Below, in pieces: positions 9,537 through 13,732 of a DNA stretch of 43,203 nucleotides. The position numbers were made by a program, and so were the translations under genes. Source of the DNA: Meiothermus sp. (GTDB lineage: Bacteria; Deinococcota; Deinococci; Deinococcales; Thermaceae); NCBI RefSeq assembly GCF_026004115.1, contig NZ_BPIM01000002.1, forward strand, positions 5,001-48,203, written 5' to 3'. The first letter of the stretch is position 1. The number at the start of each line of letters is the position of its first letter. The notes below the pieces were generated by a model that was given only the letters and a program-made list of their open reading frames with translations, was not told the DNA's origin and made no database searches.

Positions 9537-10180
9537 GATGAGCGTACGCCCAGCAAAATGGAGCCCTCGAGGCTTTCTAATAAGGCCTCCCGGGAACGCT
9601 CGAGGTGCCTCTGCAAAAAGGCTGCTGCCGCCTCGGCCTGCCCCTGCTGCAGCAGTTCGATCAAGTGCAGGTGGTCGCTCAGGGCCTGGTCGGCCCCCTG
9701 GGGGCGGGTAATTTCCAGGTAGCGGGCCCGGTAGATGCGTTGCAAAACCTGGGCCAGCGAGGCCACCACAAAGCGGTTGCCGGTAAGCTTGGCCAGGGCC
9801 AGGTGGAAATCGGTGGCTTTTTCCAGTTCGATCTCGGGGTCGAGGTCGGCTTCTACCGAGGCCAGCAGTTCCCGAAGCTGGCGGGCGTTGGGCCGGCGCG
9901 AGGCAGCCACCCGCACCACGTAGGTCTCGAGCCAGGTACGAAACTCAAAAGCCTCCTCGAGTTCCGCCAGATCCAGGGGGGCTACGGTGTAGACCCGGCC
10001 CGTGCGCTGTACCAGCCCCTCACGGAAAAGCTGTTGAATGGCGGCCCGGATGGGGGTTCGGGAAACCGCCAGCAGTTCTTCCAGTTTGCGCTCAACCAGG
10101 GGCTCGCCAGGCCTCAGTTCCAGCGACAAAATCATCCGGCGCAGGCGGCGGTAAGCCTCTTCGGTTTGCGGAGCCAGCAT
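9533..10180 (-). CDS. GntR-family (FCD/FadR-type) transcriptional regulator
   Basis: A 215-aa regulator. Residues about 5-70 form a winged helix-turn-helix with the typical GntR sequence LEELLAVSRTPIRAAIQQLFREGLVQR. Residues about 75-205 are the all-helical FCD ligand domain, which in relatives binds organic acids through a metal site. It sits directly upstream of tctCBA on the same strand, so it most likely controls uptake of the transported carboxylate. Its promoter spacer carries TGGTATACCA, which fits the FCD-type operator core GT-N2-AC, so autoregulation is likely. The ATG lies 8 nt from the -10 box with no ribosome site. The ligand is unknown. Confidence 0.92.
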   Translation of the reverse strand: MLAPQTEEAYRRLRRMILSLELRPGEPLVERKLEELLAVSRTPIRAAIQQLFREGLVQRTGRVYTVAPLDLAELEEAFEFRTWLETYVVRVAASRRPNARQLRELLASVEADLDPEIELEKATDFHLALAKLTGNRFVVASLAQVLQRIYRARYLEITRPQGADQALSDHLHLIELLQQGQAEAAAAFLQRHLERSREALLESLEGSILLGVRSS

Positions 10181-10188
10181 GGAAGGAT

Positions 10189-10217
10189 ATGCTACCCTTT
10201 TTGGTATACCAGCTCAA
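10189..10217 (-). promoter_or_regulatory. gntR promoter with GntR operator
   Basis: TTGAGC (10217 to 10212), a 17-bp spacer and TAGCAT (10194 to 10189) lie 8 nt before the ATG. The palindrome TGGTATACCA (10202-10211) abuts the -35 box inside the spacer. It matches the known FadR/FCD half-site core GTAxTAC-like pattern, so the GntR protein could block its own promoter. Confidence 0.78.
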
Positions 10218-10364
10218 CTCGAGGTTCAGGAAAAGGTGCAAACCTTTCGCCGATGGCAGGAAAAAAACGTCTGCAGTCAATGGTCTATGGCCGATGGGGT
10301 TTGTCGGACTGCAAACGTGGCCCTTGAAGCCCTAAACCTTTGACCCGGGGCGCCAGCACACCTA
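10218..10364. other. Non-coding stretch left of repeat copy A
   Basis: No gene is seen. It holds an inverted pair TGCAGTC / GACTGCA (10272-10278, 10307-10313) and nothing else I can name. Together with repeat copy A it makes a 425-bp gap between gntR and the sulfur amino acid enzyme gene. Confidence 0.4.
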
Positions 10365-10561
10365 ATACCGGATTCAAAAAGACAGTTTACAAAACCAAAA
10401 ACACCAGAGGCTGTCTTTTTGAATCCTAGAGCACACCTCTCCCTGTCGGTCGGCGAAAAAAGCCTCACCCTTCCAAGGGGCGGTATCGCCCTCCGCTACG
10501 CGGATAACTTCGGTCGGGTTAGTTCGTCACCAAAGGGTGACGAACTAACCGAATCTGGTAT
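10365..10561 (+). repeat. Structured dispersed repeat, copy A
   Basis: A 197-bp element with near-perfect inverted ends (ATACCGGATTC and GAATCTGGTAT, one mismatch in 11). In order it has a 16-bp hairpin stem (10370-10385 with 10411-10426), a linker, a 41-bp core identical in the second copy (about 10473-10513) holding two small hairpins, and a terminal 15-bp perfect hairpin (10517-10531 with 10536-10550, loop AAAG). Copy B lies in inverse orientation at 12385-12582. No open frame explains it. It looks like a MITE-type element or a structured RNA. Confidence 0.9.
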
Positions 10562-10605
10562 AAAAACCGGCGTCTCGCCACAAATACTCATCCCTGGAGC
10601 AAAGG

Positions 10606-11790
10606 CTACCTCGAGGCCGCCGTAGCCCGCGTTACCTGGGCAAGGGCTTGCTCGAGGTCGGCAATTAAATCCTCGGGGTCCTCGATGCCTACCGAAAGGC
10701 GCACCAGCGCATCGCTGACGCCGTGGGCAGCCCGAATCTCGGGCGGCAGAAGCTGGTGAGTGGTGGAGGCCGGGTGGGTGGCCAGCGACTCCACATCGCC
10801 CAGGCTTACGGCCTGGGTGAAAAGCTTCAGGCTATCCAGGAAAATGGCCGCCGCCTGTTTGGATTCCAGCTCAATGGAGACCAGCCCCCCAAAGCCCCGC
10901 ATCTGCCGCCGGGCCGTCTCGTGGCCGGGGTGGGAGGGCAGGCCGGGGTAATAGACCCGCCGCACGGCAGGGTGCCGGGAGAGGTATTCGGCTACCTGAT
11001 TTGCACCCGCGCAGTGGGCCTCCATGCGCAGGGGCAGGGTCTTGAGGCCCCGCAGCATCAGGTAGCCCTCGAAGGCCCCCAAGGTACCGCCGATATGCCG
11101 CAGCCCCTCGGCCCGCACTGCCTCCATGGGCTCCCTGGGGCCGGCCAGCACCCCTGCCAGGCAGTCGCCGTGGCCGCCCAGGTATTTGGTGGCCGAGTGC
11201 AGCACCAGGTCAATACCGTGCTGCAGGGGGCGGGTCAGGTAGGGGGTGGCAAAGGTGTTATCCACCACCGTCAGCACTCCTCTTGCGCGGGCAAGCTGGG
11301 CCACCGCCGCTAGGTCGTAGATGCGCAGGGTGGGATTGGTGGGGGTCTCGAGGTAGATCAGCCGGGTGGCAGGCGAAAGGACCTGGGGCAGGTTCTCCAC
11401 ACTCCCCGCGTCGGTTACCCGCACCCCAAATTTGGTCAGGGTCTCCAGAAAGTAGCCCTCGGTGCCGCCGTACAGAGGGGCCAGATACACGATTTCGTCG
11501 CCGGGGGCCAGCAGGGTGTTGCACAGCGCGCTGATGGCGGCCATTCCGCTGGCAAAGGCCACTGCATCTTCGGCCCCCTCGAGGCTGGCCAGCTTCTCCT
11601 CGAAGGCCCGCACGGTGGGGTTACCGACGCGCCCGTAGATATAGCCCGCCTCCTCCCCGGCAAAAAGCCGCTCTCCCCTGGCAAACGAACCATAGGCGAA
11701 GGTAGAGGTGCTGTAGATGGGCACCACATGGGCTCCGGTCATGGGGTCGGGGTGGTGTCCGGCGTGCACGGCCTGGGTTCTGATTTTCAT
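10606..11790 (-). CDS. PLP-dependent Cys/Met metabolism enzyme (methionine gamma-lyase / cystathionine gamma-synthase type)
   Basis: A 394-aa enzyme of the gamma family of PLP enzymes. Visible residues are the phosphate-binding YGR (52-54) followed by GNPT, the substrate-face LYGGT (106-110), DNTFATPYL (177-185) and the PLP lysine in SATKYLGGHGD (Lys202). Methionine gamma-lyases usually carry Cys in the position of the second Gly of YGGT, so the exact reaction (gamma-lyase, cystathionine synthase or sulfhydrylase) is open. The second ATG (11790) is preferred because GAGGT sits 6 nt before it. The divergent Lrp-type regulator next door suggests induction by an amino acid and a catabolic role, which is inference. 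Both genes lie between two inverted structured repeats. Confidence 0.88.
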   Translation of the reverse strand: MKIRTQAVHAGHHPDPMTGAHVVPIYSTSTFAYGSFARGERLFAGEEAGYIYGRVGNPTVRAFEEKLASLEGAEDAVAFASGMAAISALCNTLLAPGDEIVYLAPLYGGTEGYFLETLTKFGVRVTDAGSVENLPQVLSPATRLIYLETPTNPTLRIYDLAAVAQLARARGVLTVVDNTFATPYLTRPLQHGIDLVLHSATKYLGGHGDCLAGVLAGPREPMEAVRAEGLRHIGGTLGAFEGYLMLRGLKTLPLRMEAHCAGANQVAEYLSRHPAVRRVYYPGLPSHPGHETARRQMRGFGGLVSIELESKQAAAIFLDSLKLFTQAVSLGDVESLATHPASTTHQLLPPEIRAAHGVSDALVRLSVGIEDPEDLIADLEQALAQVTRATAASR

Positions 11791-11872
11791 AAGCATACCT
11801 CGGATTTACTTTTAGCGTAGCACCATTTGGACGGCAAAAGTTTGCGATAACGCCCGATTTTTCGCTCTTTGA

Positions 11873-11887
11873 TGCAATCAAATTGCA
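11873..11887. promoter_or_regulatory. Candidate Lrp/AsnC operator
   Basis: TGCAAT-CAA-ATTGCA is a perfect 15-bp palindrome in the 122-bp divergent region, 26 bp before the regulator start. Size and position suit an Lrp/AsnC dimer site that could serve both genes. Confidence 0.6.
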
Positions 11888-11912
11888 CAAAATGCTAAGA
11901 TGGAGCAATCTC

Positions 11913-12380
11913 ATGGCAACTATTGAACTGGACAAAAAAGACCGCAAAATTTTGAGCATCCTCCAGCGCCAGGCCCACATCCCCAACAGCGAACTCGCCG
12001 AGCAGGTTCACCTTTCCCCCTCAACCTGCCTGCGCCGGGTTCGGCGACTGGAGGAACTGGGGGTGATTCGGGGCTATGTGGCCCTCCTGGACAAGGACAA
12101 AATCGGCCGCAGCCTGTGCGTATTTGTGCGGGTCAAGCTCGACCACAAAAGCCGCGCCGATGTGGAGCGTTTTGAGCAGGAGGTGCTTAAATACCCCGAG
12201 GTCACCGAATGCCACGTGGTGATGGGCGAGGACGACTTTTTGCTCAAGATTATGGTGGCCGACCTGAACGAGTTTCAGAAATTTTTACTGGATCACCTCA
12301 CCGCCATTCCGGGCCTGAGCACGGTAATCTCCTCGGCGGTGCTGCGGCAGGTTAAGAGCACCACCGAGTTGCCAGTGTGA
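11913..12380 (+). CDS. Lrp/AsnC-family transcriptional regulator
   Basis: A 155-aa protein with the full Lrp/AsnC layout: an N-terminal helix-turn-helix (about 5-65, LDKKDRKILSILQRQAHIPNSELAEQVHLSPSTCLRRVRRLE) and a C-terminal RAM ligand and oligomerisation domain (about 70-150, with VTECHVVMGEDDFLLKI). The ATG at 11913 has GGAG 7 nt upstream; a TTG in frame further upstream lies inside the palindrome and is unlikely. It is transcribed away from the sulfur amino acid enzyme gene and probably controls it, with methionine, cysteine or a relative as likely ligand (inference from position). Its stop is 4 nt from repeat copy B. Confidence 0.92.
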   Translation: MATIELDKKDRKILSILQRQAHIPNSELAEQVHLSPSTCLRRVRRLEELGVIRGYVALLDKDKIGRSLCVFVRVKLDHKSRADVERFEQEVLKYPEVTECHVVMGEDDFLLKIMVADLNEFQKFLLDHLTAIPGLSTVISSAVLRQVKSTTELPV

Positions 12381-12384
12381 ACAC

Positions 12385-12582
12385 ATACCAGGTGCGGTTG
12401 ATTCGTTACCGAACGGTAACGAATCAACAGGGCCGAAGTTATCCGCGTAGCGGAGGGCGATACCGCCCCTTGGAAAGGGAGATGCTTTTTTCGCCGACCG
12501 TTCGGGAGGGGTGTGCTCCAGGATTCAAAAAGACGACCTTTGGGGTTTTTGGTTTCCTAGCCAGTCTTTTTGAATCCGGTAT
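12385..12582 (-). repeat. Structured dispersed repeat, copy B (inverted)
   Basis: A 198-bp inverted copy of the element at 10365-10561. In its own orientation it starts ATACCGGATTC and ends CACCTGGTAT. The first hairpin stem is 14 bp (12521-12534 with 12564-12577). The terminal hairpin stem is 14 bp (12397-12410 with 12415-12428) and differs from copy A at three positions, each compensated in the opposite arm. Its left end follows the asnC stop by 4 nt and its right end touches the hisZ stop codon, so it fills the whole convergent intergenic space. Confidence 0.9.
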
Positions 12583-13688
12583 TACCCGATGGGCTCGAGC
12601 CGCCCCTCTACCGCCAGCCAGCGGATTCCTTTTTCCAAAGCGTACTCCTTCAGGTCGCGCAGGTTGGCTGTCCAGGCCAGTTCTACCCGCTTGCCCTCCG
12701 AGCGCAGCTTTCGGGCCAGAGCCCGATCCAGCGCCAGTACCTCTGGCGGGACCTCGGACAACGGCAGGCGTAGCGCCTCCATGACCCGCTCGAGCCCCAG
12801 AGCAAAGCCCGCCGCATAAGGCAGCAAAGCCCCATCGTAGCGGCCCCCGCCCAGCAGGGGCAGGCCAAAGTCGGGGGTGTAGGCCTGGAAGTTGAGGCCG
12901 GTGTAGAAGGTCAGGAGCCGGGCCCGGCCAAGGTCAAGAAGCAACGGTACTTCGGGCAGCAGGGCCAGGACGGCCTCGAGCCAGTCCAGGTCGGCCTGGG
13001 CTTTGCCCGAGAGGGGCAGCCTGCGGGCTTCTTCCAGCACCTCCCGCCCGCCGTACAGGTCGGGCAGGGCCAGCAGGGCCTTTTGCAAGCTGGGGTGTAC
13101 CAGATAGTCCTTCAGCAAGGACTCCAGCTCAGGGCTGTTCTTGCGGTGGATGGCCTGGCGCAAGCGCTCCTTTTTTTCTTCGGGCAAGCCCGTGGCGTCC
13201 AGCAAATCCCGCACCAGGGCGGGCAGCCCCACCTCGATCTTAGCCTCGGGGAAGCCAATGAGTTGCAAAGCTTCCCAGGCCAGCTCGAGCACCTCGGCGT
13301 CGGCCTGGGGGCTGCTCACCCCCACCAGCTCGGCCCCCACCTGGCTAAACTCGCGGCTGCGCCCCAGTTCGGCGTTGGCCTCGCGCAGCCAGAGGGTTCC
13401 GGCATACTGCATGCGCACCGGCTGGCCCGACACCAACCGCCCGTTGCTACGCAGAAGCCCTGCTACCGCGGTGGTAAACTCCGAGCGCAAAGCCAGTACC
13501 TCGCCGGTTTTGTCTACGAGCTTGAAAGCGCGCTCGGCCAGGGTGTGTTGTGGGTCGTAGATTTCCAGTGAGGGCAGCTCTACCGGCTCGTACCCCCAGC
13601 CATACAAGAGCCCTGCCAGCCGCTCCAGCAGTTCGCGGCGCTGGCGGGCCTCGGGGGGCAGAAAGTAGCGGGTGCCTTCGGGAATCAT
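12582..13688 (-). CDS. hisZ: ATP phosphoribosyltransferase regulatory subunit HisZ
   Basis: A 368-aa class II histidyl-tRNA synthetase paralogue. HisZ assembles with the short HisG to make active ATP phosphoribosyltransferase, the first step of histidine synthesis. The HisRS-like fold shows in [14 protein letters not shown] (motif 1 region), [14 protein letters not shown], motif 2-like [15 protein letters not shown] and the motif 3-like [23 protein letters not shown] near residue 290. The anticodon-binding domain of true HisRS is absent or much shortened, which separates HisZ from HisRS. The ATG at 13688 matches the start expected for the family; the frame continues 9 codons upstream. hisG is not in the window. 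It is 44 nt behind the cyclophilin gene. Confidence 0.88.
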
Positions 13689-13732
13689 GCAGGTACCGGA
13701 TAGCCCAAAAGCCATCGGCTCGGAGCTAAAGC

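Follow-up and report, generated by a model that had tools for sequence, protein, structure and literature searches.

The stretch of DNA analysed (the window) comprises 43,203 nucleotides of a Meiothermus contig, and the end of a 23S rRNA gene (Rfam RF02541) lies at its edge, at positions 1-115 of the minus strand. Two copies of one element were found in the window. Copy 1 occupies positions 10366-10560 of the plus strand, with a GntR/FCD regulator gene and a gene for a Cys/Met-metabolism PLP enzyme as its neighbours (Pfam). It is 195 bp long, has the inverted ends TACCGGATTC...GAATCTGGTA and is bordered by a TAA target-site duplication at 10363-10365 on the left and 10561-10563 on the right. 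Along the plus strand, it consists of a left hairpin at 10370-10426, whose arms are GGATTCAAAAAGACAG (10370-10385) and CTGTCTTTTTGAATCC (10411-10426); a spacer module at 10427-10472 (ACCCCTCCC...CGGTCGGCGAA...CTT), which short forms of the element lack; a core at 10473-10510, made of one 38-bp unit of what we read as a minisatellite; and a right hairpin at 10517-10550 (GGTTAGTTCGTCACC-AAAG-GGTGACGAACTAACC).

Copy 2 (12386-12581, minus strand) is 196 bp long and also holds one core unit. Its neighbours are convergent (Pfam), an Lrp/AsnC regulator gene at 11883-12380 on the plus strand and a histidyl-tRNA synthetase-like gene at 12582-13715 on the minus strand, and its insertion point is the TAA stop codon of the latter. 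On the plus strand, the target reads TTA at 12582-12584 and the other duplicate reads ACA (12383-12385). The first-pass annotation had described 41 bp as identical in both copies, and this base-for-base match was confirmed between 10473-10513 on the plus strand and 12433-12473 on the minus strand. The match consists of the 38-bp core unit, CCAAGGGGCGGTATCGCCCTCCGCTACGCGGATAACTT, and the first three bases of the following sequence (CGG, 10511-10513 in copy 1). Both small hairpins proposed within it are also real, GGGCG-GTAT-CGCCC at 10478-10491 and TCCGC-TAC-GCGGA at 10492-10504 (plus strand). A search with the leading 18 bp of the core matched the window twice, against 0.07 matches expected from shuffles. 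The two copies are about 84% identical outside the core or overall and are different sequence variants, with GTCACC versus GTTACC in the right hairpins and GACAG versus GACTGG in the left arms.

Window positions 9540-13700 correspond to G000:C2:14540-18700, and this contig, C2, shares 99% identity with G007, a genome resembling M. hypogaeus. A MITE-free version of the window locus, 95-98% identical, lies on the chromosome contig of the assembly, C1 (C1:1679466-1683135). Contig C2 could derive from a second strain or represent a duplicated region.

Empty sites for both window copies were read in contig C1. For copy 1, the site (L356) has CACACC-TAA-AAACC, compared with CACACC-TAA-[element]-TAA-AAACC in the window, and L340 likewise lacks the insertion. 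For copy 2, the site reads GTGTGAAC[TTA]CCCGATGGG, and the far duplicate was changed to ACA after insertion. Further empty sites were found for other copies (L207, L270, L049 and L192). These sites prove that the elements were inserted, and together with the target duplications described below they bear out the earlier suggestion that the core lies within something mobile.

The element is a MITE: it carries no gene, its ends are inverted repeats, each end forms a large hairpin, and its TNA target is duplicated over 3 bp. Aligned copies begin with TACCGGATTC and finish with GAATCTGGTA, with a consensus frequency of about 0.97 at both ends. Element length ranged from 125 to 310 bp, and 177 left ends were found at two mismatches or fewer. 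The TNA duplication was perfect in 48 of 83 copies in the window's own genome. Its middle base agreed in 58 of these 83, compared with 25 expected from shuffles and a maximum of 43 in 10,000 shuffles. Among 169 perfect duplications in all genomes read, 167 were TTA (57), TAA (53), TCA (36) or TGA (21), and there were two others.

The whole element folds far better than shuffled sequences (z about -8, as RNA or DNA). In the left hairpin, covariation was seen within the family, GACAG/CTGTC in some copies and GATA/TATC in others. In the right hairpin, 58 double-change cells were counted, and standard pairs made up 0.907 compared with 0.865 in shuffles (maximum 0.877). The drift that the first-pass annotation saw in the stems is thus not free in the right hairpin. 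An extra hairpin module, TTGAGTACCGGCGCTAGCCGGGGGCCGATGGCCCTTCACTG, was present in the spacer of L037, L214, L188, L314, L092 and L104, from at least three genomes. At L331 (G001:C1:167982), a core unit is split by a module resembling the spacer module, CACCCCTCGCTTCGCTCGGCGAAACTACGCC, so that modules nest within one another.

In the own genome (3.35 Mb), the opening 18 bp of the core matched at about 160 places, clustered at 38-bp intervals. There, 111 core-bearing elements were read, along with many core-less copies. At all 111 core sites, MITE sequence could be recognised in one flank or both (both in 105); no core lay outside a MITE. One unit was present in 50 of these elements, two in 35, three in 18, four in 4 and five in 4, with a unit spacing of 38 bp (86 cases), 36 bp (7) or 37 bp (6). 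An element can therefore hold from zero to five core units, arranged head-to-tail at 36 to 38 bp.

Unit number also differed at a single insertion. The copy 1 insertion has one unit in the window and two in G007 (L126), with flanks identical at 150 of 150 positions, and the G007 element is otherwise the same as copy 1 except for the one additional 38-bp unit. Identical unit pairs were more frequent within arrays than between arrays (64% versus 29%), and private unit variants recurred inside single arrays (L019, L239 and L237). Slipped replication across short direct repeats would produce just such a within-array pattern. At L224/L092, one insertion has flanks that are 98% identical and the same last bases with a different element body, which suggests gene conversion between dispersed MITE copies. 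Two other pairs, L268/L104 and L218/L173, were rejected as unit-number changes, as they are separate insertions a few bases apart in related genomes; such neighbouring insertions suggest insertion hot spots. L038/L096 was not counted as a unit-number change because its flank matches are weaker.

In core-less elements, which include the 125-bp forms, GAGCACTCCCTT joins directly onto CGGTCGGG. Their target duplications were intact in 19 of 26 cases in the own genome and 25 of 31 in other genomes; for core-bearing elements, the counts were 52 of 84 and 73 of 96. For one core-less element, L270, the empty site was seen in a relative (L270/L101). The intact duplications and this empty site indicate that the core is dispensable for transposition. 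The family thereby provides a clean natural experiment, in which one element occurs both with its minisatellite and without it.

For the insertion statistics, flanks were joined and genes were predicted by a simple home-made caller based on a codon model; on this basis, 127 of 135 insertions lay outside genes, compared with 32% of nearby TNA triplets, and 21 of 135 fell on a stop codon, compared with about 2% of nearby triplets. Two of the four TNA triplets, TAA and TGA, are stop codons, and the other two, TTA and TCA, read as stops on the opposite strand; duplication of TNA at a stop codon therefore recreates the stop. Between genes of the same direction, elements were oriented with the genes in 16 cases and against them in 17 in the own genome, and in 20 and 24 cases, respectively, elsewhere. 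This absence of orientation bias argues against a strand-specific RNA role.

We consider it highly probable (roughly 0.85) that the core is the unit of a 38-bp, two-hairpin minisatellite, a module that the interior of a non-autonomous DNA transposon (MITE) may contain or lack. In all likelihood the core is merely carried along and does not itself move the element. A transposase supplied in trans would recognise the ends only, and slippage during replication, between the CTTC repeats on either side of a unit, would change the unit number. The uniformity of the core would be maintained by recent spread together with slippage and inter-copy conversion. The elements that survive would be those that landed between genes. 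Every TNA target is a stop codon in one of its two readings, and an element landing on a stop would recreate it and leave the gene intact, which provides a simple reason why the target can be harmless.

The stronger constraint on the core that the first-pass annotation had claimed was borne out in part. Across the elements, mean pairwise identity was highest in the core (0.927), followed by the spacer (0.908), the left hairpin (0.866) and the right hairpin (0.783), and the core ranked 3rd of 156 segments of 41 nt. By consensus-base frequency, the core (0.944) was hardly more conserved than the left half (0.933) and less so than the inverted ends (0.97), and the best 41-nt segment lay outside it; on this measure the result comes close to the one that the first-pass annotation had named as refuting its claim. 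Only the second half of the core stands out. The first 18 bases (0.865) were as variable as the left hairpin, and the second half reached 0.97 even in diverged pairs, a value biased upward because the elements were gathered by a match to that very half, the search bait. The uniformity of this half might reflect selection. A considerable proportion of units have a shorter hairpin, GGGC-TTAC-GCCC, in place of GGGCG-GTAT-CGCCC.

That the identity of the window copies reflects recent common descent alone, one copy deriving from the other with an unremarkable core, is unlikely. The consensus-base frequency of the core, close to that of the left half and under that of the inverted ends, is in keeping with it, but the window copies are different sequence variants, so that neither can be newly derived from the other. 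In addition, among pairs that are 78-88% identical overall, identity in the core (0.921) exceeded that in the left hairpin (0.797), spacer (0.884) and right hairpin (0.673). The 41-bp core was identical in 15% of such pairs, indicating that the perfect core of the window pair is common and not exceptional. Slippage and probable conversion homogenise the copies, so that no bound protein need be invoked to explain why the cores are identical; spread, slippage and conversion can by themselves leave a pair of repeat copies perfectly alike.

The proposal that the core is a protein-binding site or RNA motif found no positive support. In a fuller version, the core would be a cis-acting site, bound by a protein or acting as a motif in read-through transcripts, and unit number would tune the neighbouring genes. 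Each unit does carry two adjoining inverted repeats with nearly invariant stems, unit number varies, and loop changes in Calidithermus spare the stems (GGCG-CTAC-CGCC and TCCGC-CAC-GCGGA). The core is also kept in three Thermaceae genera, which counts against a passenger. Promoters and binding sites borne by MITEs are known in other bacteria (PMC10969869). However, the core was never found without a MITE, the orientation of elements between same-direction genes was unbiased, and the region showed no promoter- or terminator-like excess. No Rfam 15 match was obtained for 10300-12700 at E values up to 5. The core alone folded only slightly better than shuffles (z -1.6), and its hairpins showed no compensatory double changes; as they had no double changes at all in the family, covariation is uninformative for them. 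We therefore regard a cis-acting role as improbable, and it is similarly doubtful that the family spreads ready-made, adjustable regulatory cassettes of zero to five units that insert harmlessly at stop codons.

The further proposal, which casts the core as the recognition site of the transposase, is very improbable and was rejected: the core is among the most uniform 41-nt regions by pairwise identity and lies inside a mobile element, but intact duplications were as frequent in core-less as in core-bearing elements (44 of 57 versus 125 of 180), core-less L270 has its empty site, and genome G005 is dominated by core-less copies (80 left ends, 2 cores).

As a minisatellite carried in a MITE, the core belongs to a known kind of element; no published description of this Meiothermus family, a large modular one with members in related genera, was found in the literature searched. 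In BrickBuilt of Porphyromonas gingivalis, a minisatellite with a 23-nt unit and variable duplications lies inside a MITE present in 19 copies, with no match reported outside P. gingivalis (PMC4596501). The same source describes the 464/PgRS repeats, which are 41-nt tandem repeats (PMC4596501). BrickBuilt is the closest precedent found for the Meiothermus element. Both have a spacer-free minisatellite interior, leader and tail flanks, small inverted ends, an intergenic location and many copies per genome. The Meiothermus element differs in its 38-bp unit, its sequence and host and its copy number (more than 110 versus 19), as well as in its long hairpin at each end, constant TNA duplication and common core-less forms. 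With head-to-tail units whose number varies between copies and strains, it can be called a BrickBuilt-like, MITE-borne minisatellite; it is not BrickBuilt proper, having neither the 23-nt unit nor the BrickBuilt leader and tail sequence.

Correia elements of Neisseria and ERIC are short, hairpin-forming intergenic repeats of bacteria, with a TA target and without a tandem inner unit. Compared by description, the Meiothermus element is likewise short, hairpin-forming and intergenic, and its TNA target and tandem unit set it apart. REP/BIME sequences are small palindromes repeated between genes, and REPs lack inverted ends combined with a constant target duplication, both of which the Meiothermus element has. 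IS5-type elements (IS1031 and ISL2 groups) and the Tourist/PIF-Harbinger MITEs of plants have short inverted ends and a 3-bp duplication of TNA (TWA in plants). The Meiothermus element resembles them in its TNA duplication and short inverted ends, but the ends TACCGGATTC match none of those of the IS5-type elements found here, such as that in the own genome with ends GAGGCTGTCG and a TGA duplication.

Searches of the IS5-type transposase loci in five genomes, and of the 1.67 Mb examined, turned up no autonomous transposon with the family ends; we infer the enzyme for that reason. The IS5-type loci of G005, G003, G007 and G020 likewise yielded no autonomous parent, and no ends were shared between the MITE and an IS5-type transposase gene, the loci examined having other or unrecognised ends. 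The transposase in L303 (G000:C1:2993600-2995200) was rejected as an autonomous parent, since it belongs to the IS5-type element with ends GAGGCTGTCG and duplication TGA and is nested in a MITE. That element, at about 427-1332 of the locus, encodes DUF4096 and DDE_Tnp_1 domains, is apparently frameshifted, has the ends GAGGCTGTCGTAAAAG and sits in a MITE fusion. The inner arm of the MITE left hairpin also contains the outer bases of this element, AGAGGCTGTC. The transposases in L290 and L223 were also rejected, as they are nested in or between MITE copies. Five transposase genes with identical DDE_Tnp_1 scores and a 380-aa open frame lie at L289-L293 (G000:C1:137966, 1746822, 1813226, 2531922 and 2555288); of these, the L290 gene interrupts a MITE.

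The core and the left end were both absent from a Thermus-like genus (g4), and no phage match to the element was found. Both occur in three Thermaceae genera, including Meiothermus (M. hypogaeus and M. taiwanensis) and Calidithermus (C. chliarophilus). The element is also carried by two plasmids, one of M. taiwanensis and one of Allomeiothermus silvanus.
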